Shown: positions 7,488 to 48,316 of the stretch, piece after piece
How the letters are laid out: the number at the start of each line of letters is the position of its first letter
How positions within the stretch are numbered: position 1 is the first letter of the stretch
NCBI GenBank assembly: GCA_900696515.1
Contig: CAADGK010000064.1
Span: 77,055-127,151 of the forward strand
DNA: 50,097 nt
From: an uncultured Nitrosospira sp.
GTDB taxonomy: Bacteria > Nitrospirota > Nitrospiria > Nitrospirales > Nitrospiraceae
Direction of reading: 5' to 3'
Notes under the pieces: generated by a model
The model's input: only the letters and a program-made list of their open reading frames with translations
Databases searched by the model: none
What the model was told of the DNA's origin: nothing
Program-made: the position numbers and the translations under genes

Positions 7488-8483
7488 TTACGGAGTTGGC
7501 GAGCCCATCCCGGAAGTCGGTTCGGTGAGCGAGACTGGTGCTGGAGTTGCGGACTGTGCGCCACCTTTGAACGGAAGATCAAGCAATGCATAGGGGTTCA
7601 CCCGTGCGCCGTTGAGTTTGACACCCCAATGAAGATGCGGACCGGTCGCCCGACCGGTCGCACCGACTTTCCCGACGATCTGTCCCGCTTTCACAATATC
7701 TCCATCCTTGACCAACACTTCGGACAGGTGGAAATACATCGAGTAGAATCCCAAACCGTGGTCGAGGAAGATGCCCTTCCCGGAGAAAAAATGATCGACG
7801 GTGAGCCGCACCACCCCGTCATTGGTCGCCGCAACGGGCGTGCCGAGCGGCGCACTGATATCTTCGCCGTTATGCGGATTCCGCGGTTGACCATTCATGA
7901 TTCGGACACTACCGAAGATCCCTGATCGTCTGCCGCTTACCGGTTCCACGAAACCAGGCTGCCATAATCTGGTCTGCGAATCGACGGCCAGCCCTGTTTT
8001 GATCTGCTCCTGTTCCGCCTTCCACCTGGTGACAGCCTTCTCGTCTAAATCAACTTTGTCTTTCGGCAGCGTCAAATGCTCGATATGGAACTTTTCTTTG
8101 ACCACCGATACGCTGTAACTGAGGGTGCGACTCTGCTCCCCCTGCTTCAGTTCGACAGTCAGATCATGCGTTCCCGGCTCATCTTGTAGATCAATCCCCA
8201 GCAACCCCACAAACCCTTTCGGCTCGTCGAGTCGAGGATCCGGAAAGAATCGGATGGAGCGACCGAGAAACGTTCCCTGGACTGTAGCCGCTTCATCTTC
8301 AGACGGTACTTTTACCACAAGCACCTGGCCCTGTTTGCCGCTAAAACGACCTTCGACACCCTGAGCCGCCTGTAGCGACCCGGGGAGGAGAACAAGGACA
8401 AGAGGCGTGAGCAGCACAACGACAAACGCAAGTTGTACCAGCCCGATAGGCCGCGGATGAGAGAGACTGAACCATGGCTTCAT
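7488..8483 (-). CDS. Exported M23 (LytM-type) metallopeptidase coupled to pafA
   Basis: A 331-residue periplasmic peptidase of family M23, expected to cut peptide crosslinks in murein. It has a signal peptide or anchor (about residues 15-40, ending near LQAAQ) and a beta-rich middle part. The M23 domain (about residues 185-300) holds zinc and catalytic motifs: NPHNGED (His and Asp ligands), then GFYSMYFHLS and the HLHWG motif. Unlike the EnvC-like protein at 18.7 kb, the active site looks intact. The ATG overlaps the pafA stop (ATGA), so it is the sixth and last gene of the proteasome operon and is probably translated by coupling. M23 peptidases are not a usual partner of pupylation genes. 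Confidence 0.88.
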   Translation of the reverse strand: MKPWFSLSHPRPIGLVQLAFVVVLLTPLVLVLLPGSLQAAQGVEGRFSGKQGQVLVVKVPSEDEAATVQGTFLGRSIRFFPDPRLDEPKGFVGLLGIDLQDEPGTHDLTVELKQGEQSRTLSYSVSVVKEKFHIEHLTLPKDKVDLDEKAVTRWKAEQEQIKTGLAVDSQTRLWQPGFVEPVSGRRSGIFGSVRIMNGQPRNPHNGEDISAPLGTPVAATNDGVVRLTVDHFFSGKGIFLDHGLGFYSMYFHLSEVLVKDGDIVKAGQIVGKVGATGRATGPHLHWGVKLNGARVNPYALLDLPFKGGAQSATPAPVSLTEPTSGMGSPTP

Positions 8484-9856
8484 CGGTAGAATCGCCCTCC
8501 CGAGACTTGCGAGATCAGTTCTTCGACCCGCCGATTCGCGGCACTAAAGGGATCCATGCAGAGGATCGTTTCCTCCCAGTACCCGTTCAGTTTCAAATAG
8601 GTCCAATCAACCGTGTAGGATCGGTTCTTCGCCCGCGCGAAACGGATGAAGTCCCCTCTCACCTTGGCCCTCGTCGTTTGCGGCGGGGTCGACATGGCCC
8701 GCTGCACGGCATCTTCTTCCACAACTCGTTCGACCAACCCGCGAGACTCCATCAAATAGTACAGCCCTCTCGTCCGCTTCACATCATGGTACTGCAGATC
8801 CAGCAGCAGCACCCTCGGATCGTCCCACCCACAATTCTTCTTGTCGACGTAGGATTGAATCAGGTGCTTCTTCGTGACCCAATCGATCTGATGCGTCAGC
8901 TGCATCGGATCCTCCTCCAACTGCTGCAGCACCGCTTCCCACTTGTTGCAGACATCATCGAGAGTCGGATCGTGCGTTTCCTGTGCCAGATAGTCTTTTG
9001 CGCGGTTCAGGTAGACACGCTGAATCTCGATGGCGGTCATCTGGCGACCGTCATCGAGCCGGACCTTCTTTTTCAGGGTTGGATCACGGGACACCTCGCG
9101 GATCGCCTTCACCGAGTCTTCCAGCTCCATCCCATGGACCGCATACCCCTCTTCGATCATCGACAAGACCAGCGTGGCGGTTCCCACCTTGAGATAGGTC
9201 ACATACTCGGACATGTTCGAATCACCGACGATGATATGCAGCCGCCGATACCGTTCCGCGTCGGAATGCGGCTCATCGCGGGTATTGATGATGCTCCGGG
9301 AGGACGTCGTCGAGGACGACGTCTTCTCATGAATATGTTGCGCACGCTGCGAAATGAAATACTGCGGCTTCCCCGAGACCTTTAAGACTTTCCCGGCTCC
9401 GCTGAAGATCTGCCTGGTGACGAAAAATGGAATCAATTGTTCGGTGACTTTCCAAAAGTCGACGTCCCGGCGCATCAGGAAATTTTCATGACACCCGTAC
9501 GTATTGCCCAACGAGTCCGTATTGTTCTTGAAAATATAGATCTCCCCGGACAACCCTTCCTCCCGGAGCCGCTCTTCCGCGGCAGGCAGACAGGCTTCCA
9601 ACAGTCGCTCTCCCGCCTTATCGTGCACGACAAGATCGAGAATGTTGTCGCATTCCGGGGTCGAGTACTCCGGGTGACAGCCGGTGTCTTGATAGAAGCG
9701 AGCCCCGTTGACCAAAAAGGCGTTCGACGGCCAGCTGTTCGGAATGAGTCCTTCAAAAATGTAGCCCAAGACTTTTTCCATGGGCAGATAGATCCGGCCG
9801 TTTGGGGAGAAAATGAGGCCGTATTCGTTCTCAAGGCCGTAAATCCGTTGTTTCAT
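8480..9856 (-). CDS. pafA: Pup-protein ligase PafA
   Basis: PafA attaches the C-terminal Glu of the tag protein Pup to lysines of target proteins with ATP, marking them for the proteasome. The N-terminus matches the family: MKQRIYGLENEYG, then GARFYQDTGCHPEYSTPEC with the catalytic Asp at about residue 57, then FKNNTDSLGNTYGCHENFL. It lacks the extra loop seen in the Dop paralogue at 11.5-13.0 kb. I chose ATG 9856 because it gives the family's N-terminus and has GGTGGG just upstream; ATG codons at 9874 and 9871 are alternatives. It is 458 residues, a normal length. It follows prcA after about 90 bases and overlaps the M23 peptidase gene. Confidence 0.93.
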   Translation of the reverse strand: MKQRIYGLENEYGLIFSPNGRIYLPMEKVLGYIFEGLIPNSWPSNAFLVNGARFYQDTGCHPEYSTPECDNILDLVVHDKAGERLLEACLPAAEERLREEGLSGEIYIFKNNTDSLGNTYGCHENFLMRRDVDFWKVTEQLIPFFVTRQIFSGAGKVLKVSGKPQYFISQRAQHIHEKTSSSTTSSRSIINTRDEPHSDAERYRRLHIIVGDSNMSEYVTYLKVGTATLVLSMIEEGYAVHGMELEDSVKAIREVSRDPTLKKKVRLDDGRQMTAIEIQRVYLNRAKDYLAQETHDPTLDDVCNKWEAVLQQLEEDPMQLTHQIDWVTKKHLIQSYVDKKNCGWDDPRVLLLDLQYHDVKRTRGLYYLMESRGLVERVVEEDAVQRAMSTPPQTTRAKVRGDFIRFARAKNRSYTVDWTYLKLNGYWEETILCMDPFSAANRRVEELISQVSGGRFYR

Positions 9857-9891
9857 GGAACCCACCGTCATCATGCGCGAGTCATACTCAG

Positions 9892-9921
9892 ATTATACGC
9901 CCAGGCCGGGATCGACAACAA
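9892..9921 (-). promoter_or_regulatory. Possible internal promoter before pafA
   Basis: In the 90-base prcA-pafA gap the minus strand carries TTGTTG (9916-9921), an 18-base spacer and a perfect TATAAT (9892-9897). It could let pafA and the M23 peptidase gene be expressed apart from the proteasome core. The -35 is weak, so this is tentative. Confidence 0.35.
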
Positions 9922-9946
9922 AGGACGCCATTATGAACGGAAAAGG

Positions 9947-10633
9947 TTAGGAAGAGAGTGCCCGTCGAATCTCACCGACTGAGAGGCGACGGAACTTTCG
10001 GCCGGTCCGACTGCGGTCCAGCACCGCAATCTCCAACCCCTCCGGCTGGAGCTTTTGATTGGCCGTTTGATCGAGAGCCGTCACACAAAGTCGTAAGGCC
10101 TCGTCGAGACTCGGGACATGGCCGGGGCTTTTGTCCTTCAAGAAATTCTGCACCGTATCCGCCCGCCCCCCGATCACGGCAACATTCTTTTCGTCGATGA
10201 TGCTCCCGTCAAATGAAATACGATAGATTTCATTCGGATGGCTGTTGATGCCGGTCTGTACGACGAGGATTTCCACCTCCAACGGCTTCATTTCCTGACT
10301 GAAGACCGTCCCGAGACTCTGCGAATAGCCGTTCGCCAACGATCGGCCGGTGACGTCTTCTCGGCTGTACATGAATCCCTTGAGATCGGCGTGGCGAATC
10401 CCCGCCTTCCGAAGATTCTCGAACTCGCTATACTTGCCGGCCCCGGCAAACGCGATATTGTCGTAGATCTCGGAGACTTTATGGAGCGAGGCGCTCGGAT
10501 TGTCCGCGGCCAAGAGAATCCCTTCGACGTACTCCATCGCGATGATCGATCGGCCCTTGGCGATCCCCTTTTTGGCGTACTCCGCCTTGTCCTGCATCAT
10601 CTGCTCAGGAGACACGTAGTAGGGCATCGGCAT
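9947..10633 (-). CDS. prcA: 20S proteasome alpha subunit
   Basis: PrcA forms the outer seven-membered rings of the 20S proteasome and gates entry to the chamber. The 228-residue sequence follows actinobacterial PrcA closely. MPMPYYVSPEQMMQDKAEYA opens the N-terminal gate and H0 helix region, followed by KGIAKGRSIIAM. Downstream blocks are SASLHKVSEIYDNIAFAGAG, REDVTGRSLANGYSQSLGT and the NEIYRISFDGSI strand. As expected for alpha subunits there is no N-terminal catalytic Thr or cleaved propeptide. It starts 3 bases after the prcB stop, so the two subunits are made from one message. The C-terminus is longer and more basic (RTGRKFRRLSVGEIRR) than I would expect for an actinobacterial PrcA. Confidence 0.95.
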   Translation of the reverse strand: MPMPYYVSPEQMMQDKAEYAKKGIAKGRSIIAMEYVEGILLAADNPSASLHKVSEIYDNIAFAGAGKYSEFENLRKAGIRHADLKGFMYSREDVTGRSLANGYSQSLGTVFSQEMKPLEVEILVVQTGINSHPNEIYRISFDGSIIDEKNVAVIGGRADTVQNFLKDKSPGHVPSLDEALRLCVTALDQTANQKLQPEGLEIAVLDRSRTGRKFRRLSVGEIRRALSS

Positions 10634-10636
10634 GAA

Positions 10637-11476
10637 TTAGGTCTCCCGTGAACGACGAGCTGCCATGACCGCGTCACACACCGTCCGGAGTGTGTCTTCC
10701 GCGACATCCGTAATGCCGTGATCCGTTACGATCTTTGCGGTGGGATAAATCCCGCGCACGAGGTCGGGACCACCGGTCCCCACGTCGTCATCCGCGGCAT
10801 TGTAGAGCGCCAACACCGCCAGCTTAATCACCTCCACCTCGGAGAGATTTCGCTGAAAATGCTCCCGCATCGTATTGCGCGCATCTTTTCCGCCCGACCC
10901 GATCGCATGGTAATCCGACTCTTCGTATCTCCCGCCGGTGATGTCGTACTTGAAAATGCGGCCCTCGCCGCGTTTCAGGTCATACCCGACATAGAGCGGC
11001 ATCACGACCAGCCCCTGGAACACCATCGGCAAGTTCGCCTTCACCATCTGGCCCAGCTTATTGGCCTTCCCTTCGCAGGAAAGCGGCACACCTTCCAATT
11101 TCTCGTAATGCTCCAACTCGGTCTGAAACAGCTTAGCCATCTCGATACAGGGACCGGCTGCCCCCGCAATCGCCATCGCCGACCACTCATCAATCTTGAA
11201 TACCTTCTCAATCCGGCGATCCGCGATCTGAAATCCCTCGGTGGCGCGGCGGTCTCCGGCAATGATCACCCCATGCTGATACTTGATCGCCAAGACGGTC
11301 GTAGCAGAGGGCACCGACACTGCCCCGGCTGTGCGCGTCGGATCGGCGTTGGGCGCGAGCCCGTTCGCTCCGAGCGTCAAGCCGGGATAATGTTTGGAAA
11401 GGAATTCCACGAAGCTGGAACCGTCGTCATCGGGGAGGTGGGGTAACTTCATCGTCGTATCAAGACCGTTCGTCAC
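10637..11476 (-). CDS. prcB: 20S proteasome beta subunit (catalytic)
   Basis: PrcB forms the inner rings and holds the active sites. The 279-residue precursor has a propeptide of about 58 residues containing SSFVEFLSKHYPGL, which aligns with the SSFTDFLRRQ-type block of actinobacterial propeptides. Cleavage before TTVLAIKY would expose the nucleophile Thr59. The Asp and Lys partners lie in the GDRRATEG and RRIEKVFKIDE regions, and GSGGKDARNTM and DDDVGTGGPDLVRGI complete the site. The GTG start at 11476 overlaps the dop stop (GTGTGA); ATG 11452 is an alternative that would shorten the propeptide by eight residues. No tag-protein gene lies between dop and prcB, unlike the usual actinobacterial order. 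Confidence 0.95.
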   Translation of the reverse strand: MTNGLDTTMKLPHLPDDDGSSFVEFLSKHYPGLTLGANGLAPNADPTRTAGAVSVPSATTVLAIKYQHGVIIAGDRRATEGFQIADRRIEKVFKIDEWSAMAIAGAAGPCIEMAKLFQTELEHYEKLEGVPLSCEGKANKLGQMVKANLPMVFQGLVVMPLYVGYDLKRGEGRIFKYDITGGRYEESDYHAIGSGGKDARNTMREHFQRNLSEVEVIKLAVLALYNAADDDVGTGGPDLVRGIYPTAKIVTDHGITDVAEDTLRTVCDAVMAARRSRET

Positions 11477-12975
11477 ACCTTGAGCTTTTCGAGAAGCACA
11501 TCAACCGAATCGGCAGCATCCAGTAGCGCCCCGGTCAAGGCCTGTGTCCCACGATGGGGATCCATCAAGGGGACTTTCTTGATCGTGGTATCACCGGCAT
11601 CGAACAAGACCGAGGTCCAACTGGCACCGTACAGCGACTTCGCAAACTTCCTGATACAGCGTCCACGAAAATAGGCTCGGGTACCCGTCGGTGGATGAAA
11701 CTCAGCCCGCTGGATTTCTTCCTCGTCAACGATTCGCTCGATCAGCTGGCTACGCTCCAGCGTATAGAAGAGCCCCTTTTCTGGACGGACGTCATGGTAT
11801 TGAAGATCCATCAATTTCACGCGTGGGTCGCCCCAGCCACAGCCTTTTCGTTCCATGTAGGATTCGATCAAGTGTCGCTTCGCCACCCAGTCCAATGAAT
11901 GGACCAACAATCGGGGATCGCGCTCAAGTTTATTCAGCACCTCTTCCCAACGGAGCAGCACATCTTGGATCGTGGAATCGTGCGCCTGCGAGGCGTAAAA
12001 CACCTTGGCCGCATCCAGGTAGGCCCGCTGGATCGCCAGCGCGGTAGTGGGCCGTCCGCCAGCCAGCTTCACCGTCTGTTTGACTTCCAGATCTCGTGAC
12101 ACCTGTTTGAACACCCGAACCGGCTCTTCGAGTTCGATCTGCGGCAAGTCGGCACCGGCCTCCAGCAAATGCAGCACAACGTCCAAAGTCCCCACCTTGA
12201 GATAGGTGGACAACTCCGCCATATTGGCGTCGCCCGTAATCACATGGAGTCGCCGGAACCGTGCTGAATCCGCATGGGGCTCATCACGCGTGTTGATGAT
12301 CGGGCGCTTGACCATCGTATTGAGGTCCATGAGACATTCAAAAAAGTCCGCGCGCTGAGAGAGCTGATATTCTGTCGGTGCAGTCTGATTTTCAGCACCA
12401 ACTTTTCCCGCCCCGGCAAAGATCGGCCTGGTCACAAGAAACGGCGTCAACGTCCGGGCAATCCGATCGAACGGCACGCTTCTCGAAACTAAGTAGTTTT
12501 CATGATATCCGTAACTGTTGCCTTTGCCATCAGAGTTGTTCTTATAGAGGGTATAGACTTCGAAGCCTCGTGCACGGGCCATGGTCTGCAGGCATGAAGC
12601 CAGAATGCGCTCTCCCGCCCGTTCAAACGCCACGATCTCTCGAGCGTGTGAACACTCCGGCGTCGAGTACTCCGGATGAGCCCCGTCCACATACAGCCGT
12701 CCCCCGTTCGCCAACATCTTGTTGAGCTGCCGGTTATAGTCGGGGTTCGGACGCTCACGCTCCCCCTCGACCTCAAAGCCACGTGCATCGACCAGCGGGT
12801 TCTCATTTTCATAGTCCCAGACTGCGGTTGGAGCCGCCAGGTTCGGATAGTGCCCGATCACGGCAAAAGATCCTGCCACCGGGTCCATCGCCGACGCATC
12901 TCTCGAGGCAATCCCGAACTCCGTTTCCGTACCAATTATGCGGGCGGAGTTCGTGCGAGTCTGGTCGTTCATCAT
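11473..12975 (-). CDS. dop: Deamidase/depupylase Dop
   Basis: Dop is the paralogue of PafA. It converts a C-terminal Gln of Pup to Glu where needed and removes Pup from substrates. The N-terminus reads RIIGTETEFGIA, followed by the Dop-specific insert (about residues 40-80, including NPLVDARGFEVEGE), which tells it from PafA. The catalytic Asp is about residue 97 in RLYVDGAHPEYSTPEC. YKNNSDGKGNSYGYHENYL and INTRDEPHADSARFRRLH are further family blocks. I set the start at ATG 12975 (or 12972), four bases after the mpa stop. The longer frame to 13155 only reads through mpa. It is 501 residues. Presence of Dop together with PafA implies a complete tagging cycle. Confidence 0.93.
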   Translation of the reverse strand: MMNDQTRTNSARIIGTETEFGIASRDASAMDPVAGSFAVIGHYPNLAAPTAVWDYENENPLVDARGFEVEGERERPNPDYNRQLNKMLANGGRLYVDGAHPEYSTPECSHAREIVAFERAGERILASCLQTMARARGFEVYTLYKNNSDGKGNSYGYHENYLVSRSVPFDRIARTLTPFLVTRPIFAGAGKVGAENQTAPTEYQLSQRADFFECLMDLNTMVKRPIINTRDEPHADSARFRRLHVITGDANMAELSTYLKVGTLDVVLHLLEAGADLPQIELEEPVRVFKQVSRDLEVKQTVKLAGGRPTTALAIQRAYLDAAKVFYASQAHDSTIQDVLLRWEEVLNKLERDPRLLVHSLDWVAKRHLIESYMERKGCGWGDPRVKLMDLQYHDVRPEKGLFYTLERSQLIERIVDEEEIQRAEFHPPTGTRAYFRGRCIRKFAKSLYGASWTSVLFDAGDTTIKKVPLMDPHRGTQALTGALLDAADSVDVLLEKLKV

Positions 12976-12979
12976 GTGG

Positions 12980-14749
12980 TTAGAGATAGTGGCCGGTACT
13001 GATCGTTTCGATCTGACGATGTTCCGTCGGTCCGCCGCTGATGGTCCGAAGATGGATGATCTTCTCGCCCTTCTTGCCGGCGACCTTGGCCCAATCGTCC
13101 GGATTAGTCGTATTGGGAAGATCTTCGTGTTCCTTGAACTCTTCCCGGATGGCACGAATCAAGTCGTCCGATCGCAAACCGGTCCCCTCATTGGCGATCA
13201 CCCGCTTCACGGCGAACTTTTTCGCCCGCGACACAATCCCTTCGATCAACGCGCCACTGGCGAAGTCCTTGAAGTACAACACTTCCTTTTCGCCGTTGGC
13301 ATAGGTCACTTCAATGAATTTGTTTTCTTCGCTCGCCGCATACATGGCTTCGACGGTCATGGCGGTCAAGTGTTCGACCAGCGCATGCCGATCCCCTCCA
13401 TGCCGCGCGACGTCCTCCTCGGCGAACGGAAGGTCCGTTGAGATATACTTCGAGAAAATGTCCCGTGCTGCATCGGCATCCGGGCGCCCGACCTTCACTT
13501 TGACATCCAACCGCCCGGCACGCAGCACGGCCGGATCGATCAGATCCTGGCGATTGCTTGCTCCGATGACGATGACATTACGCAATCGTTCGACGCCGTC
13601 GATCTCGGAGAGAAATTGGGGAACGATCGTTGACTCAATATCCGAGGACACACCGGTCCCACGGGTGCGAAAGAGCGCGTCCATCTCATCAAAAAAGACG
13701 ATCACGGGATGTCCATCCTCAGCCCGCTCCTTGGCCTTCTTGAACACCTCGCGAACTTGACGTTCCGACTCCCCAACATATTTGTTAAGCAGTTCAGGAC
13801 CCTTGACATGCAGGAAGTAGCTCCGAATCTCTTTCCCGGATCGATCGCCCAGCTTCTTGGCAATCGAGTTGGCCACCGCTTTGGCGATCAGCGTCTTGCC
13901 GCAACCGGGAGGGCCATAGAGCAGCACGCCCTTCGGCGCGCTGAGTTGGTATTCAGCGAAGACCTGAGGGTGCAGAAACGGGAGTTCGACGGCGTCACGT
14001 ACCTGCTCCAACTCTTTCTGAAGGCCGCCGATGTGCGCATAGTCGACATCCGGGACTTCCTCCAAGACCAGCTCTTCCGCTTCCGACTTGGGCAGCTTTT
14101 CGATCACGTAACCGGAACGCGTATCGTAAAGCAGATGGTCCCCGACACTCAGCCGTTCAGCCAATAAAGGATCGCCCAGGTCAGCCACCTTCTCCTCGTC
14201 GAAATGGAGGGTGACCAAGGCCCGGCCCCCTTCTAGCACATCCTTGAGTCGAACGACTTCGCCTTGACTGTCAAATCCCTTGACCTCCACCACATTGAGG
14301 GCTTCATTCAAGACAACCTCTCGCCCTTTCCGCAATTCGGTCCGGTTGATCGAGGGATGAAGGCTCACCTTCATTTTCCGGCCTGATACATACACATTGC
14401 CCGTTCCGTCTTCGTTCAGACTGGAAAAGATGGCGTAGCTCGACGGAGGCGCCGTGAGCTTTTCCACCTCAGCCCGAAGGGCCTCGATCTGAGCTTTGGC
14501 GTCTTGCAGCGTCGCAACGAGTTTCTCGTTCTGTTTGGTCGCCTGGTCGAGCTGGTAACGAGATTGATACAGCCGACGGATCTCTTCTTCCATCGACTGA
14601 ATTTGCACGCGAAGTTTGTCGAGCTCCCGAGCCTGTTCACTGTTCTTGTGAATCATCTCCCCCTCCTCCTCGGACAACCGCTTTGTAATCTTCTTGACAG
14701 AATCTCGGAGGGACCGGAGTCGGTTTGGCTGACTCTTGCTATCCGCCAT
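12980..14749 (-). CDS. mpa: Proteasome-associated AAA ATPase (Mpa/ARC)
   Basis: Mpa/ARC is the hexameric ring ATPase that recognises pupylated proteins, unfolds them and feeds them into the 20S core. The 589-residue protein has an N-terminal coiled coil (about residues 30-100) that would bind Pup. Two OB-like domains follow (about 105-225). The AAA domain has Walker A GPPGCGKT at 279-286, Walker B VIVFFDEMDAL at 349-359 and an RNVIVIGASNR sensor block. The protein ends in GHYL, with the penultimate Tyr of the HbYX-like tail that docks into proteasome alpha rings. ATG 14749 is chosen because the family starts at the coiled coil. It is the first gene of the operon, behind the promoter at 14812-14840. 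Confidence 0.95.
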   Translation of the reverse strand: MADSKSQPNRLRSLRDSVKKITKRLSEEEGEMIHKNSEQARELDKLRVQIQSMEEEIRRLYQSRYQLDQATKQNEKLVATLQDAKAQIEALRAEVEKLTAPPSSYAIFSSLNEDGTGNVYVSGRKMKVSLHPSINRTELRKGREVVLNEALNVVEVKGFDSQGEVVRLKDVLEGGRALVTLHFDEEKVADLGDPLLAERLSVGDHLLYDTRSGYVIEKLPKSEAEELVLEEVPDVDYAHIGGLQKELEQVRDAVELPFLHPQVFAEYQLSAPKGVLLYGPPGCGKTLIAKAVANSIAKKLGDRSGKEIRSYFLHVKGPELLNKYVGESERQVREVFKKAKERAEDGHPVIVFFDEMDALFRTRGTGVSSDIESTIVPQFLSEIDGVERLRNVIVIGASNRQDLIDPAVLRAGRLDVKVKVGRPDADAARDIFSKYISTDLPFAEEDVARHGGDRHALVEHLTAMTVEAMYAASEENKFIEVTYANGEKEVLYFKDFASGALIEGIVSRAKKFAVKRVIANEGTGLRSDDLIRAIREEFKEHEDLPNTTNPDDWAKVAGKKGEKIIHLRTISGGPTEHRQIETISTGHYL

Positions 14750-14767
14750 AGTGAGACGATATGACCA

Positions 14768-14783
14768 GCTCAAAATATTGAGC
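14768..14783. promoter_or_regulatory. Short inverted repeat in the mpa leader
   Basis: GCTCAA and TTGAGC are separated by AATA, a perfect 6-base dyad 18 bases before the mpa ATG and about 28 bases after the -10 box. It could be a small RNA hairpin in the leader or a repressor site. The arms are short, so chance is possible. Confidence 0.35.
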
Positions 14784-14811
14784 CTAAGCGAGAGTACGTT
14801 TGGTGTGAGGG

Positions 14812-14840
14812 ATTCTAACATCCGACCTGGGGGTGGTCAA
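14812..14840 (-). promoter_or_regulatory. Sigma70-like promoter of the proteasome operon
   Basis: On the minus strand TTGACC (14835-14840) is followed by a 17-base spacer and TAGAAT (14812-14817), close to consensus with ideal spacing. It lies between the thiE stop and the mpa start, giving a leader of about 55 bases. It would drive mpa-dop-prcB-prcA-pafA and the M23 peptidase gene. Confidence 0.6.
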
Positions 14841-15620: not shown

Positions 15621-16394
15621 TCAGAGCATGCCCTCGATCGGACTGCTCGCCGTTGCGTACAGCTTCCGGGGAATGCGACCGGCCTTGTACGCCAGACGAC
15701 CCGCATGGACGGCGTACTTCATCGCTTCCGCCATCGCAATCGGATCCTGCGCCCCGGCAATGGCCGTGTTCATGAGAACCGCATCAGCCCCGTACTCCAT
15801 GGCCAAGGCTGCATCGGACGCTGTTCCGACACCGGCATCGACGATGATCGGCACTTTCACCGTTTCCATGATGATCTTCAAGTTATACGGATTTCGAATC
15901 CCCAGGCCTGATCCAATCGGCGCCGCGAGGGGCATAACGGCCGGGCAGCCGATATCCACGAGCTTCTTCGCGACGATCGGATCATCATTCGTGTACGGAA
16001 GGACAATAAATCCTTCCTTGATGAGAATCTTCGCCGCTTCAATGAGACCGGCCGTATCAGGGAAAAGCGTCTTCTCGTCCCCGAGCACTTCCAGCTTTAC
16101 CAGGTCGGAAACACCAGCCGCGCGGGCCAATCGAGAATATCGCACCGCATCTTCCACGGTATAGCATCCAGCGGTATTGGGAAGAATCGTGTATTTCTTC
16201 GGATCGATGTAATCAAGCAGATTCTCCTTCGATGGATCAGTGATGTTCACCCGGCGCACCGCGACCGTGACCACATCAGCGCCCGACACTTCAATCGCCT
16301 TCTTCGTCTCGGCAAAGTCTTTGTATTTTCCTGTCCCGACCCATAGTCGGGACTTGAACTCACGCCCCGCAATAACCAATCGATCATCAGCCAT
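15621..16394 (-). CDS. thiG: Thiazole synthase
   Basis: ThiG makes the thiazole phosphate half of thiamine from deoxyxylulose phosphate, dehydroglycine or glycine imine, and sulfur carried on ThiS. The 257-residue barrel is typical in length. [15 protein letters not shown] is a family signature, and the Schiff-base Lys is in [16 protein letters not shown]. The phosphate sites are [11 protein letters not shown] and [18 protein letters not shown] 16394 sits inside the last codons of thiS (8-base overlap), behind AGAGGG, so the two are translationally coupled. No thiO, thiH or thiF lies nearby, so the glycine-imine source and the ThiS adenylase must be coded elsewhere. Confidence 0.95.
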
Positions 16395-16623: not shown

Positions 16624-16630
16624 CCCTGTC

Positions 16631-16660
16631 ATCCTATGAGACCGGAATTCGCCTTGTCAA
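16631..16660 (-). promoter_or_regulatory. Promoter candidate for thiS-thiG-thiE
   Basis: Minus-strand TTGACA (16655-16660), an 18-base spacer and TAGGAT (16631-16636). The predicted transcript start falls almost on ATG 16623, which suggests a leaderless or very short-leader thiS message. There is no TPP riboswitch in the 90-base gap. Confidence 0.45.
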
Positions 16661-41097: not shown

Positions 41098-42477
41098 CTA
41101 TAGCTCCGGCTTATCAACTTTCGCCGCTGGGTGTTCCCCTGCCAGTTTCGTGTGCAGATACTTCTTGCTTACGGTCGTGATGAGAAAGGCAAGACCGATG
41201 GCGATCGGCACAAAGATGGCCGAGGCCACGTTCGCATTGCCAAGCCAACCGACTTCATACAGTCCTTTGAAGACATATCCCGCCAGCCCGGCTAGGTAGT
41301 AGGCAATGACGATCACCGATAATCCCTCAACCGTGTGCTGAAGGATCACTTGGCTCTTCGTCGTCTTGTCGACGCTCTGGAGAAGCGTGAGATTCTGTGA
41401 CTCCACAATCAAGTCGATCCGGGTGCGAATAATCGCAATGATGCCTTCGAATCCGCTGCGAAGCGTATCGATCCGGCGCAAGAGTTGTTGATACCCTTCC
41501 GCCACACCCGTAATACCTCCCAATACATAGTCGGAGATGGGACGGTAGGAGGCTGTGGGCTGCTCCGCCAACGAGGCCAAGGTGGCATGCACGATCTTAT
41601 CGTACGGAATCGAGGCCGACAGTTCGAAGTGTAACTTGCCCGCCATACGATTGGTTTTCAGCAAATCTTGCGTGAGGCTGTTCAACCATCGCTGCAACGT
41701 CTCAGCATTGGCATGCCCGATATGCCCCGTAATGATTTCTCGCTGCTGGAGATGCACCTGTTCGAATTTATAGACTTGGTCGATCGCGGCGGAGAACAGC
41801 GGCTTCTGCATCAGCAGGAGATGGTAGTAGGTTTCAATCCGCACAACGGCATCCACAATGTCTTTCAACCGCGAGTGGTCGCCTTGCAACGGGCCGACGC
41901 TCACCCAGTACCGTTCTCGCCCGTGATTGTCCGGCGTAAAACTGGTCACGACAGCCGCCTGCTCATTGAAGATTCTGCTGCCATACAATACAGCCCCCGG
42001 CAACTGCCCTCGCACCTCATCGCGAGAAGGCATGGCTCCCGTCTTCAGCACGATATCCAACCGGCAAACGACCGAACCAAGGGGTGTCAAGGAGACGGGG
42101 ACAGCTGGAAACGTAAGTGGTCCAAAAGTAAGCAAACTCGCCGTGGATGAAGGCACATGCCAAAATTGGTAGTTATAGTATTCCGTATGGGCTTGCCAGA
42201 TGAGAATGAGACGATCTCCATTCTCGGCTTCCTTCACACCATAGCCAAAATTGTCTCGCAGTTCGATCCGCTCATCGGGAACCTTGAATCGCTCCAGTAA
42301 CGATTGAAATTCAGCTCGGCTGGCCGGGCGCTGCGTGGGCGGGTCGGACATGCGAAAGGCTTCGTACTGCACATGGGCCGGTGCCCGAATCCACTCGCTG
42401 ATCGGCTGATGCGGTCGCTCGTGCAGTTTCTTCAGAAATGATTCGCCGTCGTCCCGATAGAAGCCAGCCTGAGTCAC
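41098..42477 (-). CDS. DUF3422 family membrane protein
   Basis: A 459-residue protein of the DUF3422 family. GTG 42477 is chosen because AAGGGAGAG lies four bases upstream; the frame opens further out. The soluble N-terminal part contains ERPHQPI and the AHTEYYNYQFW block. A helical central region follows, and two membrane segments lie near the C-terminus (about residues 365-395 and 405-430). These membrane proteins are widespread, and their function is unsettled. It is convergent with uvrA across about 30 bases. Confidence 0.85.
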   Translation of the reverse strand: MTQAGFYRDDGESFLKKLHERPHQPISEWIRAPAHVQYEAFRMSDPPTQRPASRAEFQSLLERFKVPDERIELRDNFGYGVKEAENGDRLILIWQAHTEYYNYQFWHVPSSTASLLTFGPLTFPAVPVSLTPLGSVVCRLDIVLKTGAMPSRDEVRGQLPGAVLYGSRIFNEQAAVVTSFTPDNHGRERYWVSVGPLQGDHSRLKDIVDAVVRIETYYHLLLMQKPLFSAAIDQVYKFEQVHLQQREIITGHIGHANAETLQRWLNSLTQDLLKTNRMAGKLHFELSASIPYDKIVHATLASLAEQPTASYRPISDYVLGGITGVAEGYQQLLRRIDTLRSGFEGIIAIIRTRIDLIVESQNLTLLQSVDKTTKSQVILQHTVEGLSVIVIAYYLAGLAGYVFKGLYEVGWLGNANVASAIFVPIAIGLAFLITTVSKKYLHTKLAGEHPAAKVDKPEL

Positions 42478-42578
42478 AAATCTCTCCCTTACGAGAATGA
42501 AATACAGCCCTAACACTCACCGCTATTCTCTTTACCAATGATGCGTGAGTGATGAGGAGAGAAGCAAGAGGAGAGGAT

Positions 42579-43139
42579 TCAGTTGCAGGATGGATCGAAC
42601 GGCATCTCCGCGTAGGGCTGATAGGCTTCGCCCAACGTGCACAAGATGTCTCCCCACACGCGCGTCGGATCCTTTTCAAACACCGCTTGAGGATCGGCAG
42701 GAAGGATAATCCACGAGCCGGTTTTCATCTCGCCTTCCAGCTGGCCAGGCCCCCACCCGGAATAGCCAAGATAGGCCCTGAAGAATTCTTTCGTACCGGC
42801 GGCAGTGAGAATGCGTTCAACCATCCCGATATCCCCGCCGAGACAGACTCCGTCGAAGACATGGTGGGCATTGTCGGGAAATTGGTCACCCCGGTAGAGC
42901 AACATCACTTGATTCGTTTGTACGGGACCGCCGGCATAGAGGACATGCCCTGTACCTTCAATGACCGGAATCTGTGGCAGCGCCTCGGAAATCGACATCG
43001 CGGTGGGCCGATTCACAATGACACCCAAAGCGCCCTCCGGCCCATGTTCGCACAGCAACACCACGGTCTGGCGAAAATTGGGGTCGCGCAGGCCTGGCGC
43101 GGCGATCAAGAACATGCCCTTCCGGAGTTCCGTGCTCAT
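42579..43139 (-). CDS. yqgE: YqgE/AlgH family protein
   Basis: A 186-residue UPF0301 (YqgE/AlgH) protein. ATG 43139 is chosen behind GGTAGGA; the longer frame adds 19 unlikely residues. Family blocks: KGMFLIAAPGLRDPNFRQTVVLLCEH, GALGVIVNRP, YAGGPVQ and FRAYLGYSGWGPGQLEGE. In Pseudomonas AlgH was linked to alginate regulation, but the biochemical role is not established. The gene follows the nitrilase-family gene on the same strand after about 70 bases. Confidence 0.92.
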   Translation of the reverse strand: MSTELRKGMFLIAAPGLRDPNFRQTVVLLCEHGPEGALGVIVNRPTAMSISEALPQIPVIEGTGHVLYAGGPVQTNQVMLLYRGDQFPDNAHHVFDGVCLGGDIGMVERILTAAGTKEFFRAYLGYSGWGPGQLEGEMKTGSWIILPADPQAVFEKDPTRVWGDILCTLGEAYQPYAEMPFDPSCN

Positions 43140-43211
43140 GAGCGAAATCCTACCTTGCTCATGCAACTTGCGCAAGCTCCGGGCTTCTCTCGGCAAAATG
43201 CATGTGAGCGG

Positions 43212-44003
43212 TTATAACTTGTACAGGGAGACACGCCGGTCACGAAGCAGATCGTTATAACGATTGAGACTCTTGTTGCGGGCTTCAGCAGGATCGATCT
43301 CGATAATAGTCAGTTCTTCTTTGTCACGCGCCGCTCGCTGCATGATCACGCCTTTCGGTGTGACGATTTCACTCTTGCCGATGTAAGTCAATGGATCCTT
43401 GCCACCGCGTGCCTCCCGGCCGATGCGATTGCACGTCACGGCAAACACCCGATTTTCAAGGCACCGAACGGGCATCGAATCCGGGCAGTTCGGCAAGACA
43501 AGATTGGAGGGATGGCAAATGATCTCGGCGCCCTGAATCGCCAATGTCCGAGCAGCCTCTGGATAGTACCAATCGAAACAAATCATGACACCGATCTTGG
43601 CGACACCGATATCCCACACCAGAAAGCCGGAATCACCCGGCGTGAAGAACTGGGTTTCTTCGTAAAACAGATGGGTTTTTCGGTAACACCCCAGAAATCC
43701 AGAAGGCCCCACGACCACGGCGGAGTTATAACACACTGATCCGGATCGTTCGGGGAGTCCTGCCACAAGATGCAGCTTGCGGCTCTTCGCGATATCCACG
43801 AGCCGGCGAACCGTCGGACCATCCGGAACCGGCTCGGCAAGACGCTGCGCCTCTTCACGAGACAAGAATTGATACCCGGAGGCGAACAGCTCCGGGAGTA
43901 CGAGCAAATCGGCATCCGCCTGCTCCAGCTTCGCCGCCACCACATCAAGATTCGCAGCGACTTCCCCGAATTGCGGATCGAATTGGTAGAAGCCGACTCG
44001 CAC
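43212..44003 (-). CDS. Carbon-nitrogen hydrolase (nitrilase superfamily)
   Basis: A 263-residue amidase-type enzyme of the nitrilase superfamily. The catalytic triad is visible: Glu in LVLPELFASGY (about residue 38), Lys in CYRKTHLF (about 109) and Cys in VMICFDWYYPE (about 142). GTG 44003 is chosen because CGGAGC lies seven bases upstream and a hairpin sits between it and the next gene. A TTG at 44078 would place that hairpin inside the coding region. Likely substrates are linear amides or N-carbamoyl compounds; the precise one is unclear. Confidence 0.88.
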   Translation of the reverse strand: MRVGFYQFDPQFGEVAANLDVVAAKLEQADADLLVLPELFASGYQFLSREEAQRLAEPVPDGPTVRRLVDIAKSRKLHLVAGLPERSGSVCYNSAVVVGPSGFLGCYRKTHLFYEETQFFTPGDSGFLVWDIGVAKIGVMICFDWYYPEAARTLAIQGAEIICHPSNLVLPNCPDSMPVRCLENRVFAVTCNRIGREARGGKDPLTYIGKSEIVTPKGVIMQRAARDKEELTIIEIDPAEARNKSLNRYNDLLRDRRVSLYKL

Positions 44004-44024
44004 AGGACGCTCCGTTTCATGCAA

Positions 44025-44055
44025 GAACGGGCAGGGATTGCGTCCCTGCCCGTTC
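44025..44055 (-). terminator. Strong hairpin between the SmbP-like and nitrilase-family genes
   Basis: GAACGGGCAGGGA and TCCCTGCCCGTTC form a perfect 13-base-pair stem with a 5-base loop. It lies about 40 bases after the SmbP-like stop on the minus strand. No T-run follows on that strand, so it may be a factor-dependent stop or an RNA-stabilising 3' hairpin. Its position supports GTG 44003 as the start of the next gene. Confidence 0.55.
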
Positions 44056-44094
44056 AAAATCTCAGCTGTCGCCGACAACTATCGGCTATTGACG

Positions 44095-44442
44095 TTACTT
44101 CACTTCAGCCAGATGCGTGGCGCCGCCGTCGGCGTGTTCCGTGCATGCCTCCGCATGTCCGGCTTTGCCATGCTTCACCGCTTCCGTCAGATGCTTCACG
44201 CCTTCGAGTAAATGCGGGTTTTTCCCACCGGCAGCCGTCGCATGCTTCAGCGCCTCTTCTGCATGCTGCACACAGGCGTCGGCATGGCCTTCCTTGCCAT
44301 GGGATGCCGCACCCCTCGCATGTTCGACCGCTTCTGCCAGATGCTTGTCCCCGGCCAGTGCGACGCCATTGAACAACGGCGCCCCAAGCAACAGGCTGCC
44401 CCCGATCACCACCAACGCACTACGAAGAATTCTTCTCATCAT
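44095..44442 (-). CDS. SmbP-like small periplasmic metal-binding protein
   Basis: A 115-residue exported protein with a signal peptide (about residues 5-30, ending VALAGDK). The mature part is a chain of short helical repeats with regular His residues: HLAEAVEHARGAASHGKEGH, ADACVQHAEEALKHA and HLTEAVKHGKAGHAEACTEH. This matches SmbP of Nitrosomonas europaea, which binds copper and other metals. The mature part also has two Cys. ATG 44442 lies behind AAGGAGG. It has its own promoter and hairpin, so it is a single-gene unit. A role in copper handling or buffering is likely. Confidence 0.8.
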   Translation of the reverse strand: MMRRILRSALVVIGGSLLLGAPLFNGVALAGDKHLAEAVEHARGAASHGKEGHADACVQHAEEALKHATAAGGKNPHLLEGVKHLTEAVKHGKAGHAEACTEHADGGATHLAEVK

Positions 44443-44502
44443 GGCTGCCTCCTTGATGGATGAAGATTCACAGTTCAAGTGACGGCTGCTTTGCATAAAT
44501 TC

Positions 44503-44532
44503 ACCTTACACAGCGGGTCTCACGACTGTCAA
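44503..44532 (-). promoter_or_regulatory. Promoter of the SmbP-like gene
   Basis: Minus-strand consensus TTGACA (44527-44532), an 18-base spacer and TAAGGT (44503-44508). The -35 box overlaps the end of the sulfurtransferase gene. The leader would be about 55 bases. Confidence 0.55.
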
Positions 44533-45407
44533 GAATGTTGGGGGGCTGAGGAAAATCCAAGAATTTTCTGCAGCGACTGCAAGTCCTTCTCGACCGGAGC
44601 GGCAAAGTCCCGACTCCACTCCCACCATGATCCTGGGTAGTTGCTGACCTTCGGATACCCGACCAGCTTAAGGATAAAGTAGAGCCAGGCTGATCGTACC
44701 CCTCCGGTACAGTAGCAAATCACCTCCTGATCTGGTTGCACCCCCTTCGCCTCCAACATTTCCTTGACCACCGTAACGTCCTTGATCGTGGCATCTTTAT
44801 TTAGAAAGCCGTTCCACGCCAGATGAATGGCTGAGGGAATATGGCCGGGCCGTGGAATCCCCGATACTTCTTTCCCGAGGTATTCTTCAACACTTCGCGC
44901 ATCCAGAATCGCCGTCTGGGGATGCGGCATCCTCACAATCGTTTTCAGATCGTCTTTCACCATCAGTAGCGTCTGCACCGGTCGAGCAGTAAAGTTCCCC
45001 ATCGGTGACGACACTGGCCCATGTTCGAAGGGCCGCTTCTCTGCTGTCCACTTCACCCACCCCCCGTCCAGAATACGCAGGCGTGGGTGACCCAGATAGT
45101 CCAACATCCAGAACATCCGTCCTTCATCGCCCCAATTGTCGAAAGGGTTCGAATAGATCACGACATCGCTGTCGTGATTGATCCCGAGACGGCGAAGGAT
45201 CTGTTCGATCTGGCCAAGGTCTGGATTGAGCAATCCCTTCGCCACGGCCTTGGGGTCACTATATTCATGCCACGTCGAATGAACAGCCCCCGGAATATGG
45301 CCGCCGAATTCATAGGCCGCTCGACCGCGAACGTCGAGAACGACCAACCCCGGTTTTCCCAACTGCTCTTGGAGTGTCTCAGTATCGATCAACAATGGAT
45401 GGTTCAC
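44529..45407 (-). CDS. Thiosulfate sulfurtransferase (two-domain rhodanese)
   Basis: A 292-residue protein with two rhodanese domains. The N-terminal domain (about residues 1-130) has the fold but no catalytic Cys. The C-terminal domain has the active-site loop CYCTGGVRSAW, with the nucleophile at about Cys233. Such enzymes move sulfane sulfur from thiosulfate or mercaptopyruvate to thiols or cyanide; the loop favours thiosulfate. The start is GTG 45407 with AAAGGA upstream. It follows the HDAC-like gene by about 35 bases and probably shares its message. Confidence 0.9.
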   Translation of the reverse strand: MNHPLLIDTETLQEQLGKPGLVVLDVRGRAAYEFGGHIPGAVHSTWHEYSDPKAVAKGLLNPDLGQIEQILRRLGINHDSDVVIYSNPFDNWGDEGRMFWMLDYLGHPRLRILDGGWVKWTAEKRPFEHGPVSSPMGNFTARPVQTLLMVKDDLKTIVRMPHPQTAILDARSVEEYLGKEVSGIPRPGHIPSAIHLAWNGFLNKDATIKDVTVVKEMLEAKGVQPDQEVICYCTGGVRSAWLYFILKLVGYPKVSNYPGSWWEWSRDFAAPVEKDLQSLQKILGFSSAPQHS

Positions 45408-45441
45408 GATATTGTTCCTTTACAATCCATTCGCGCCTGAT

Positions 45442-46386
45442 TCATGCCCTCAATAGTGCTTGGATATGGGCATCCACTGAGTGCGCCAACGCGGTGAGGT
45501 TGTAGCCGCCTTCGAGCGAGGACAGAATACGCCCCTTCGCATGGCGCTTGGCAATCCCGGCGACAATGTCTGTCAGATCTGCATATCCGGCCTCCGTTAA
45601 CCCCATACTCGCCAACGGGTCATCTTTGTGGGCATCGAATCCCGCTGAAATAATCACAAACTCCGGCTTGAACGCATCGGCCGCCGGCACCAGGGCTTTG
45701 AGGAAAATCGCATGGTACTCCGCATCACCCTCCCCTGCCTCCATCGGCACATTGATGGTAAATCCTTGCCCGGCTCCCTTGCCTCGCTCGGTTCCACGAC
45801 CGGTGCCAGGATAGTGCGGATATTGATGGGTGCTGAAAAAGAGCACGGAAGGATCCTCTTCAAAACTATGCTGCGTCCCGTTGCCATGGTGCACATCCCA
45901 ATCCACGATCAGCACCCTCGTCACTCCGTATTTCTTTTGGACATAGCGCGCGGCAATCGACACATTATTAAGAAGGCAAAATCCCATCGCACGACCGGCT
46001 TCAGCGTGGTGCCCTGGAGGGCGAACCGCACAAAAGACATGTTCCACCTGATGGGCCATGATGGCATCAACCGCTGCCAATGCACCGCCTGCCGCAAGGT
46101 AGGCCGCATGTAGTGAGCCTGGCGACATCGACGTATCAGGATCGAGCGAGACACGGCCCTCTGTTGGCGCATGCCGATTGAGCGAGGCCACATAGCTCGG
46201 CGAGTGAACCTGCGTGACCCATTCATCTTCAGCCCGTCGAGGCTCGATGCGAGTCAACTGAGCGACAGTACCACTCTCCTCCAATCGCTGCATAATCGCG
46301 CGCAACCGATTGGGAGACTCCGGATGTCCCGGTCCCATGTCATGCTCAAGAAACGCTGGATGGTAGACGAGACCCGTTTTGCCCAT
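45442..46386 (-). CDS. Histone-deacetylase-superfamily amidohydrolase
   Basis: A 314-residue zinc amidohydrolase of the bacterial HDAC/AcuC/acetylpolyamine-deacetylase superfamily. Motifs: FLEHDMGPGHPESPNRL near residues 13-29, RPPGHHAEAG with the catalytic His pair, and DWDVHHGNGTQ with zinc Asp and His. SAGFDAHKDDPL supplies the third zinc ligand, and LEGGYNL is also present. Removal of acetyl groups from small amines or proteins is likely; the substrate is unknown. The same-strand sulfurtransferase gene follows 34 bases on. Confidence 0.92.
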   Translation of the reverse strand: MGKTGLVYHPAFLEHDMGPGHPESPNRLRAIMQRLEESGTVAQLTRIEPRRAEDEWVTQVHSPSYVASLNRHAPTEGRVSLDPDTSMSPGSLHAAYLAAGGALAAVDAIMAHQVEHVFCAVRPPGHHAEAGRAMGFCLLNNVSIAARYVQKKYGVTRVLIVDWDVHHGNGTQHSFEEDPSVLFFSTHQYPHYPGTGRGTERGKGAGQGFTINVPMEAGEGDAEYHAIFLKALVPAADAFKPEFVIISAGFDAHKDDPLASMGLTEAGYADLTDIVAGIAKRHAKGRILSSLEGGYNLTALAHSVDAHIQALLRA

Positions 46387-46408
46387 GACAACTACTCGTG
46401 AAGCGTGG

Positions 46409-46510
46409 TTCGCTTGAAGCGAAGCGCTGGTAGCTTATGGCCTATGGCATGGGGAGAAAGAAGTTGCCCGGATTGTTCCTTCTCGTGCTATACACCATAG
46501 GCCATCAGCT
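46409..46510. repeat. Palindromic intergenic element
   Basis: AGCTTATGGCCTATGG (46432-46447) and CCATAGGCCATCAGCT (46495-46510) are inverted copies with one mismatch, 15 of 16 bases. The inner flanks (GAGAAAGAA... and ...TTCCTTCTC) also pair, so about 79 bases can fold into one hairpin. Just before it, TTCGCTT-G-AAGCGAA (46409-46423) is a second perfect palindrome. No gene or TIR-bounded ORF lies inside; it looks like a REP- or MITE-type intergenic repeat. Confidence 0.6.
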
Positions 46511-46606
46511 CTTCTCCTATGTGAGATATGATGCCAGGTTATCACGCAGAAAACGTCATAGACAATGTGCCGCGGCGCTGCTATCGTCCTCACACGGAGG
46601 GAAATA

Positions 46607-46924
46607 ATGCCGAATCCTAGAATTGAACCGCTCAAGAAAGTGCTCGCCATCGATCCGAACGACGATGTGGCCTGGTTTGGATTGGGGAAAGCCTACATGG
46701 ACGATGGGAACTTTGAAGAAGCCGCAAAGGCCCTCAGACAATGTGTCACCGTAAAGCCCACCTACTCCGCCGCCTACTTTGCGCTGGCACAGTCACTTCA
46801 TAAACTGAATCGGATCGACGAATGCCGTACAATCTGCGCCACTGGCATTGAGGTCTCGACCAAAAATGGCGATGCCATGGTGACGAAGAATTTGGAGATG
46901 CTCAAGGGTGCATTACCTTCCTAA
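46607..46924 (+). CDS. TPR-repeat protein
   Basis: A 105-residue protein with about two and a half tetratricopeptide repeats. DDVAWFGLGKAYMDDGNFEE is followed by AAKALRQCVTVKPTYSAAYF and ALAQSLHKLNRIDECRTIC. ATG 46607 has GGAGGG upstream. TPR proteins bind partner proteins. No partner is coded beside it, since the next gene runs on the other strand. It lies just after the palindromic element. Confidence 0.8.
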   Translation: MPNPRIEPLKKVLAIDPNDDVAWFGLGKAYMDDGNFEEAAKALRQCVTVKPTYSAAYFALAQSLHKLNRIDECRTICATGIEVSTKNGDAMVTKNLEMLKGALPS

Positions 46925-46987
46925 TATTTCGCGACTTGCCTGCCACATCTTTCCCGCTCTTTGAATGGCCAAGAGCCCCTGATGCCA

Positions 46988-47833
46988 CTACAACGTCTGA
47001 CAAATGGAATCTCTCTGTCGTTCTGAGAGTAAGGCCAAGGCCTGCGGGTTCTGAATCAGAAGCCTCACCCGTGGTTGAGTTCTCTGGTGTCGTGGACGCT
47101 CCACCAATTCGACGTTAGCTAATCTCGTTCCAGCCTTTGACGGCAAGGGCTCCACATCCCACAGGGAAATCAGCACGGCACTCATGGTCGGGATCTTGGT
47201 GAGTAACACCGTCACCGTACCCGCCAGCATTTTCAGATCTAGCCAGATCTCTTCTGGCCTGGTCGCTCTGTCGCCCTGAAGATCTGCCCGCGGAATCGAG
47301 ATGCCAAGCACCACCGGATCGCAGTAGTCGGCCAATTGCTTGGCCTTTTGGCGAGTGCGGGCAAGGATCCGATGCGTCAGGATCACCCCTCGATCTTCCT
47401 CCTCACCGACAACCTCATCGAGGTCGAGCCCACGCAACGGCAACCGTTGCCGTTCTGCAGAGCCCACCATAGTCGTGACTTCCACGAAGAACCGTTCACG
47501 CCCAACACGGCATTCAAGATCGGCTGTGCGGGCTTGAGATTCCGGCAGGAAGGTGACGTGGACCCCAGTGCGAATAAGCAGGGTAGCCAATTCCAATTCG
47601 GCGAGGGCGGATTCCCTCACCCCGTAATCATAGTGTGTGAGACGCCGGACCAGTCGACTGAGGCGTAGATGGCTCGATTGATCCGCACAATGTCGCTGGA
47701 GCGTCGACCACCGGTCATGAAGCCCAGATGCAAGCCCTTGCTCCTCCCGCTTCCAGGCGGGCACGTGCGCTGACTGCTCCCCATGAAGTGGTACGGCCAA
47801 CCTGAACGTCTTGCGCGAACGAAATCTCGCCAT
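46988..47833 (-). CDS. Unrecognised protein with a PD-(D/E)xK-like motif
   Basis: A 281-residue soluble protein of no family I recognise. In the middle, an acidic helix (LAELELATLLIRTG, about residues 78-90) is followed by LPESQARTADLECRVGRERF and FVEVTTM. Asp105 and Glu118-x-Thr120 have the spacing of a PD-(D/E)xK nuclease core, with Thr in place of the final Lys. The C-terminal half has no recognisable motif. ATG 47833 lies three bases after the stop of the small gene at 47837-48172, so the two are co-translated. Confidence 0.6.
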   Translation of the reverse strand: MARFRSRKTFRLAVPLHGEQSAHVPAWKREEQGLASGLHDRWSTLQRHCADQSSHLRLSRLVRRLTHYDYGVRESALAELELATLLIRTGVHVTFLPESQARTADLECRVGRERFFVEVTTMVGSAERQRLPLRGLDLDEVVGEEEDRGVILTHRILARTRQKAKQLADYCDPVVLGISIPRADLQGDRATRPEEIWLDLKMLAGTVTVLLTKIPTMSAVLISLWDVEPLPSKAGTRLANVELVERPRHQRTQPRVRLLIQNPQALALLSERQRDSICQTL

Positions 47834-47836
47834 CGG

Positions 47837-48172
47837 TCATACCGGTGCTGCGCCTTCATCATCGTTGGGTGACAAGCCAAGCGACTCCGGGCGACGCTGT
47901 GCCACCTCTTCATACAAATCGTCCAGCCATCGACCGGCACAACCCAACACCTCACGGACCAGCGGTTCCGGCTGACCGGTTCGCCTGATCGTCCATTGCG
48001 ACACGTACTCCAGGAGCGTCTCCCGGTCAAATTGCCGACTGGACTGCGTCGCCAACGTCACAAGTTCACCCAGTCCAATGTGCAAGATCTCGGCGACCAG
48101 GTCCCTTCCATACGACGTGCTGGCCGTCACATATTGAATGGCGCGATTGATTTCTTGTTCAGTCATGGCCAC
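47837..48172 (-). CDS. Small helical protein paired with the nuclease-like gene
   Basis: A 111-residue soluble, all-helical protein with an acidic C-terminus. It is not recognised. MTEQEINRAIQYVTASTSYG opens it, and LVTLATQSSRQFDRETLLEY lies in the middle. The stop is three bases before the ATG of the nuclease-like gene, so the two form a compact pair. It is divergent from the oligopeptidase gene across about 145 bases. A regulator or partner role is possible but unproven. Confidence 0.5.
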   Translation of the reverse strand: MAMTEQEINRAIQYVTASTSYGRDLVAEILHIGLGELVTLATQSSRQFDRETLLEYVSQWTIRRTGQPEPLVREVLGCAGRWLDDLYEEVAQRRPESLGLSPNDDEGAAPV

Positions 48173-48316
48173 GACACTAAAAACCTGTCACATTCCCGGC
48201 ACCTCCGTCAATGCGGGCATGCGGGTTCCGCCTGCGGCCTCACATTTTTCTCTTCTCCTGAAAGAGACCGATGATATGATCGGCCATTATCCGATTCACG
48301 TATCAAGGAGTACCCG

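Follow-up and report, generated by a model that had tools for sequence, protein, structure and literature searches.

In the Pup-proteasome systems of actinobacteria and of Leptospirillum the tag gene, pup, sits between dop and prcB, a place described as rigidly conserved. A system built on another tag, UBact, is said to go back to work by Lehmann et al. in 2017. That a genome of this phylum may hold two gene sets is already known: Leptospirillum ferrooxidans carries two complete proteasome/pupylation gene sets, according to a figure legend of PMC3511204. The subject of the present analysis is a stretch of 50,097 nucleotides (the window; C64:77055-127151) from the draft genome of an uncultured member of the Nitrospirales, assembled as 4.59 Mb in 144 contigs, 99.99% complete with 2.4% estimated contamination. 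It carries a proteasome operon, mpa-dop-prcB-prcA-pafA, which resembles the actinobacterial and Leptospirillum systems in having the same five enzyme and protease genes, of the same families and in the same order, with a T-T pair at the PrcB cleavage site and, in the same genome, a Pup ending in GGE; unlike them, this genome has its pup at an hppA-recJ-rel locus instead of between dop and prcB. We consider it highly probable (about 0.93) that the system is an ordinary Pup-proteasome one, its tag gene having moved out of the operon to another place in the same genome.

The system is thus a known one in an unusual layout, an order-wide exception, within the limits of the sampling, to the gene order in print: the whole order Nitrospirales appears to break the rule. 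Passages of PMC3511204, PMC2588565, PMC7947786, PMC11354881 and PMC12053664 treat nitrospirae or Leptospirillum, not Nitrospira proper, and searches confined to open-licence PMC papers found no report of pup relocation in Nitrospirales.

The window operon has no room for a tag gene

The five genes lie on the minus strand, and all five products score above the equivalog cut-offs of NCBIfam.

8480..9874, minus strand: pafA, Pup ligase (TIGR03686, 564.3 bits; cut-off 551.3)
9947..10633, minus strand: prcA, 20S proteasome alpha subunit (TIGR03691, 299.4 bits; cut-off 139.05)
10637..11476, minus strand: prcB, 20S proteasome beta subunit (TIGR03690, 297.7 bits; cut-off 191.9)
11473..11476, minus strand: 4-base overlap (GTGA) of dop and prcB, the presumed vacated pup site; pup is found here in other orders of the phylum
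11473..12975, minus strand: dop, depupylase/deamidase of Pup (TIGR03688, 549.7 bits; cut-off 492.3)
12980..14749, minus strand: mpa/ARC, proteasomal AAA ATPase with C-terminus ...TGHYL (TIGR03689, 741.5 bits for the frame 14821-12980; cut-off 504.75)

The start of mpa, ATG at 14749, was chosen from the sequence, the longest frame beginning at 14821. In PrcB a propeptide precedes the motif TTVLA, at which we place Thr1 by presumed analogy, and the T-T pair is invariant in all 15 aligned PrcB proteins.

The initial annotation, made from the window's letters, had put the five Pup-proteasome genes within 8480-14840, with junctions too tight for a tag gene and no such gene in or around the cluster. 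The genes are where it put them, and recomputation returned the same junctions: 4 bases between mpa and dop, the dop-prcB overlap, and 3 bases between prcB and prcA. Its figure of about 90 bases for the gap between prcA and pafA fits a later pafA start, the gap being 72 bases up to the first in-frame pafA ATG; the value depends on the start codon chosen. A six-frame profile search of the whole genome gave no Pup or UBact match within the window, both genomic tag matches being on other contigs. The operon is without room for a tag gene.

The genome encodes a single Pup, on another contig

The same search, with the Pfam Pup profile, returned one match, at C77:670-858 on the minus strand (E 7.9e-21), and the match was still the only one when the limit was relaxed to E<=10.

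G000:C77:667-864 (L001:670-864 for the 65-residue frame), minus strand: pup, 65 amino acids, ending in QKGGE; outside the window

The protein scores 77-78 bits with PF05639 (78.4 for a longer frame, 667-882; cut-off 27) and 61.6 bits with TIGR03687 (cut-off 41.45). Since an invariant GGAGGTG directly precedes its ATG, the 65-residue frame, 864-670, is most likely the gene. The initial annotation had proposed a whole-genome search with Pup and UBact profiles as a check, and had left it open whether the tag would prove to be elsewhere, very short or of a different type; the search gave one match for each tag, both off-window, and for this operon only the first possibility stood, the protein being an ordinary Pup (PF05639) of 65 residues with a GGE end.

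On C77 pup is flanked, on the same strand, by hppA (H+-pyrophosphatase) upstream and recJ downstream; the latter name, for a DHH-family protein, is backed by the DHH, DHHA1 and RecJ_OB domains of its full-length homologue in an outgroup. The small contig C119 holds rel together with the C-terminal part of recJ, and C77 the N-terminal part. By dc-megablast against Nitrospira moscoviensis (genome G053, taken as NZ_CP011801.1; its pup coordinates recur in the genome to which the named locus L135 belongs), the window's end falls at 3,399,391 and the start of C77 at 3,404,604.

41136..50097: right end of the window, which is the end of contig C64; colinear with N. moscoviensis toward the pup locus, with C119 and C77 fitting next

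From this colinearity of the window end, C119 and C77, and by adding the gap, we infer that pup lies about 45 kb upstream of prcB in this genome.

The C77 Pup would then be the substrate of the window's PafA and Dop. Going by what is established for these enzyme families, PafA would ligate it through its C-terminal glutamate onto substrate lysines, a GGE ending needing no deamidation; Dop would remove it, and Mpa would unfold tagged proteins into the PrcA/PrcB chamber.

pup is far from prcB in the sampled order and beside it in outgroups

The order sample comprised 146 genomes, that of the window included, drawn from its genus, family and order. Pup was present in 136 of the 146 and a 20S-beta match in 143, above the cut-off in 135. 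Both Pup and an above-cut-off beta subunit occurred in 126 genomes, on the same contig in 32 and on different contigs, where the distance is unreadable, in 94. Within the window's family, all 27 genomes with both genes on one contig had them on the same strand, pup 44.8-63.0 kb upstream; in five genomes of another family of the order the two were 87 kb to 1.4 Mb apart, again on one contig. Single-contig relatives have the pup locus and the operon on one chromosome. A phylum sample of 295 genomes, 137 of them with Pup and 135 with a beta match at E<=1e-60, contributed 14 further one-contig cases from the same family; the nearest pair of genes was 41.0 kb apart, and one pair lay on opposite strands. 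For the order in total, 46/46 one-contig genomes thus had pup 41 kb or more away from prcB. In the single-contig genome G104, Pup carries five inserted residues near the C-terminal helix (L090:3595-3810, 43 bits).

Outside the order, by contrast, pup was found 116-185 bp upstream of prcB in all 15 genomes of the other orders of the class and in 23 of the 26 Pup-bearing genomes of other classes; two of the remaining three had the genes on different contigs and one had no PrcB match, and the outgroups with both genes on one contig were all at this distance (38/38), measured between profile matches. Direct inspection of 18 outgroup operons found pup directly upstream of prcB in every one and dop before pup in 17, the exception being L071, in which the best dop match fell on pafA.

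Named records, of which the best 80 loci were taken, agree. Thirty-one were taken as Nitrospirales by title or tree; the dop-prcB junction was visible in 24 and contained a Pup match in none, while the other seven had no dop upstream. Comparison of the same junctions in related genomes had been another check proposed by the initial annotation, and the lack of Pup in all 24 means that its absence from the window operon is neither chance nor an error of assembly. Two of the Nitrospirales, L155 and L156, have a dop-prcB gap of 242-265 bases and still no Pup match in it. Among the same 80 loci, those of Troglogloeales, Leptospirillum, Nitrospinae, 'Deltaproteobacteria' and most actinobacteria have Pup just upstream of prcB. 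Exceptions outside the Nitrospirales, besides the Rokuibacteriota and Methylomirabilota loci described below, are L208, which begins at prcB, and, among the loci listed, the Nitriliruptoria L178 and L198, without a Pup match in the locus. The prcB-prcA locus of genome G400 (Nitriliruptoria; L178/L239) has neither Pup nor an upstream dop; Pup there adjoins a dop match close to where another contig ends, and the operon may be split between contigs. Genome G401 (Nitriliruptorales; L198) has PrcA and PrcB matches, with Pup found nowhere in the genome, and its assembly is possibly incomplete.

One practical consequence is that neighbourhood-based annotation will miscall Nitrospira proteasome operons as 'Pup-less'.

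The pup-recJ-rel locus

In the 30 loci with the best-scoring Pup matches, recJ is downstream of pup in all and hppA upstream in 29; a more diverse set of 32 loci (L082-L113) has recJ downstream in 28, rel, a gene of the RelA/SpoT family, downstream in 30, and hppA upstream in 26. Four loci from three genera (L091, L092, L109, L113) have no recJ match, pup standing directly before rel. The more constant neighbour of pup is thus rel rather than recJ. A search of 23 outgroup genomes for recJ gave 13 matches, with rel after recJ in 12 of these; in none of the 13 loci was there a Pup beside recJ (0.66-1.5 kb upstream of recJ examined), nor an hppA match that would mark an empty hppA-recJ site. As the outgroup recJ-rel pair is without pup, it would appear that pup joined an old recJ-rel pair.

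Alignment of 14 loci, all from the window's family, revealed in each an invariant TTGACG-N18-TAnnGT followed by GGAGGTG, a Shine-Dalgarno sequence, before the ATG of Pup. A scan of this genome gave no terminator in the interval from pup to recJ, while a single promoter-like site precedes recJ. Conservation of the promoter-like box suggests that pup is transcribed independently, and after its move the tag would have come to be transcribed apart from its enzymes. This arrangement offers a natural experiment, in which tag expression in nitrifiers could vary apart from that of the ligase, with a stringent-response gene as the lasting neighbour of pup. A bolder proposal, speculative and in our judgement quite unlikely, is that the tag supply of Nitrospirales is tied to the recJ-rel locus, rel being a (p)ppGpp synthetase/hydrolase gene, such that pupylation would follow growth-rate or starvation signals, many of the cells running a second, UBact-tagged proteasome as well.

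A second operon is of UBact type

The window operon is of Pup type; the UBact system (NF033388/PF20513) is present in this genome as a separate, second operon. In L. ferrooxidans there are likewise two sets; here the second set is UBact-type.

L245:5388-12099 (G000:C79:38387-45098): complete UBact-type operon, with ATPase2, dop2, UBact, prcB2, prcA2 and pafA2
L245:8735-8929: UBact, 64 amino acids, ending in RTGQ, between dop2 and prcB2 (NF033388, 77.6 bits; cut-off 35)

UBact also scores 75.5 bits with PF20513 (cut-off 27.8). The five large proteins of this operon are below the Pup-type equivalog cut-offs, among them the second 20S-beta subunit of the genome, at 168.5 bits. The C79 match is the genome's only one to UBact (E<=0.001), and there is none in the window operon. 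Across the order, UBact was matched in 100 of the 146 genomes; 89 have Pup, window-type PrcB and UBact together, and 37 have Pup and that PrcB without UBact. These counts imply that the two systems are separable and that Pup goes with the window operon, and the 37 genomes without UBact mean that UBact is not needed to explain it. With Pup and UBact systems in one cell, tag specificity becomes directly testable. One relative, G035, has two UBact matches about 2.4 kb apart (G035:C35:122595-122720 and 125141-125266).

Contrary evidence and alternative explanations

Several results weigh against a standard Pup system with a relocated tag gene, or against parts of that reading. The pup contig and the operon contig are separate in this draft. 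We searched the 11 Pup-less genomes (the 10 of the order sample, and G297 from the phylum sample) for recJ and rel, and found neither in five of them (G074, G297, G093, G131, G144). Ten of the 146 genomes have Pup with no window-type PrcB above the cut-off, and when all ten were searched for Pup_ligase, G008 and G049 gave no match, while the only ligase-family genes of G003, G004 and G041, all Pup-bearing, were the two beside UBact. As to transcription, the consensus promoter scan did not flag the TTGACG box, its second hexamer being below the scan threshold, and the single terminator-like hairpin found after hppA in the window's genome is no more than expected, shuffled sequences giving an average of 0.9. 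The node that would define the sister group of Nitrospirales in the tree described below has a support of only 0.70.

Fragmented assemblies appear to lie behind many of the missing genes. Six of the 11 Pup-less genomes have a contig that breaks off short of the pup site: G009, G056, G103, G015 and G020 have rel, or what remains of recJ, at the start of a contig, and in G084 the recJ match is preceded by 293 bases of contig, with no Pup match. For the five without recJ or rel an assembly gap is the simplest reading, true loss of Pup being possible. Assembly gaps are likewise the likely cause of Pup without PrcB in the ten genomes, of which four (G018, G054, G129, G140) have ligase-family genes beyond the two adjacent to UBact, those of G018 and G054 at most 1 kb from a contig start. 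Genome G095 differs: it has no PrcB match, its Dop/PafA gene is a relic interrupted by 5 stops, and its Pup, still in place at hppA-pup-recJ (L100:3237-3371), is degenerate and ends in QGRG. Such joint decay, a single case, fits a relocated Pup that served a window-type operon.

It might be supposed that the window enzymes use not Pup but the UBact of the C79 operon, which is encoded in the same genome and shares with the window operon the presence of Dop/PafA-family enzymes, and G003, G004 and G041, with ligase-family genes only beside UBact, could be read this way. UBact lies, however, inside an ATPase-dop-prcB-prcA-pafA operon of its own whose five large proteins fall below the Pup-type cut-offs that the window's five exceed; 37 genomes combine Pup with window-type PrcB and have no UBact match, and in G095 Pup and the ligase-family gene have decayed together, so that we regard use of UBact as very unlikely. 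Contamination at binning, the true genome having lost Pup, might be suspected in a draft of 144 contigs with an estimated 2.4% contamination, but the window end, C119 and the start of C77 are consecutive along the N. moscoviensis chromosome, recJ is split between C119 and C77, and single-contig relatives have both loci on one chromosome. Contaminant origin of pup is accordingly highly improbable, and we reject it on this synteny. We give almost no credence to a short or cryptic tag in or beside the operon. The frame at 16387-16632, near mpa, is a candidate in that its product is ThiS-like and continues some residues past GGG; against it, the frame adjoins others that look thiG-like and thiE-like, and a real Pup elsewhere makes a cryptic tag unneeded. 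Extra residues past GGG occur also in the ThiS-like proteins of four relatives' loci, not identical in all.

A further alternative concerns history only: in place of a move as such, a copy of pup, perhaps foreign, would have entered upstream of recJ, the operon losing its own copy afterwards. Moves of genes usually take these two steps, copy and then loss, and Pup has too few residues to give a resolved tree, which would accommodate a foreign origin. On the other side, relocated Pups are 52-92% identical to that of the window genome within the order (38% for the decayed copy of G095) and those encoded within operons, in other orders and classes, 36-71%, which fits descent without proving it; and no operon-side pup copy was seen in the order, among the order genomes searched and the named loci. 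We hold this course of events to be unlikely, if well conceivable. Departure of pup from the operon in the ancestor of Nitrospirales would most simply account for its distribution, the gene having moved once, to just upstream of recJ-rel.

Probable relocation of pup outside the Nitrospirales

In a FastTree tree of five concatenated proteins from 45 taxa, the 13 Nitrospirales group together with a support of 1.0, and the Rokubacteria and a Methylomirabilota genome branch elsewhere. These other lineages likewise have no pup at the dop-prcB junction (L163 and L166, Rokuibacteriota; L161, Methylomirabilota), and it is found elsewhere in their genomes, at loci different from that of Nitrospirales: at L236 after a dCTP deaminase gene, with L237 colinear, and at L238 about 1.8 kb from fusA. 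Their relocations were apparently independent of that in Nitrospirales; from the other loci and the separate branches, pup has probably left the operon at least twice. In the L238 genome there is also a second Pup fragment, truncated where a contig begins.

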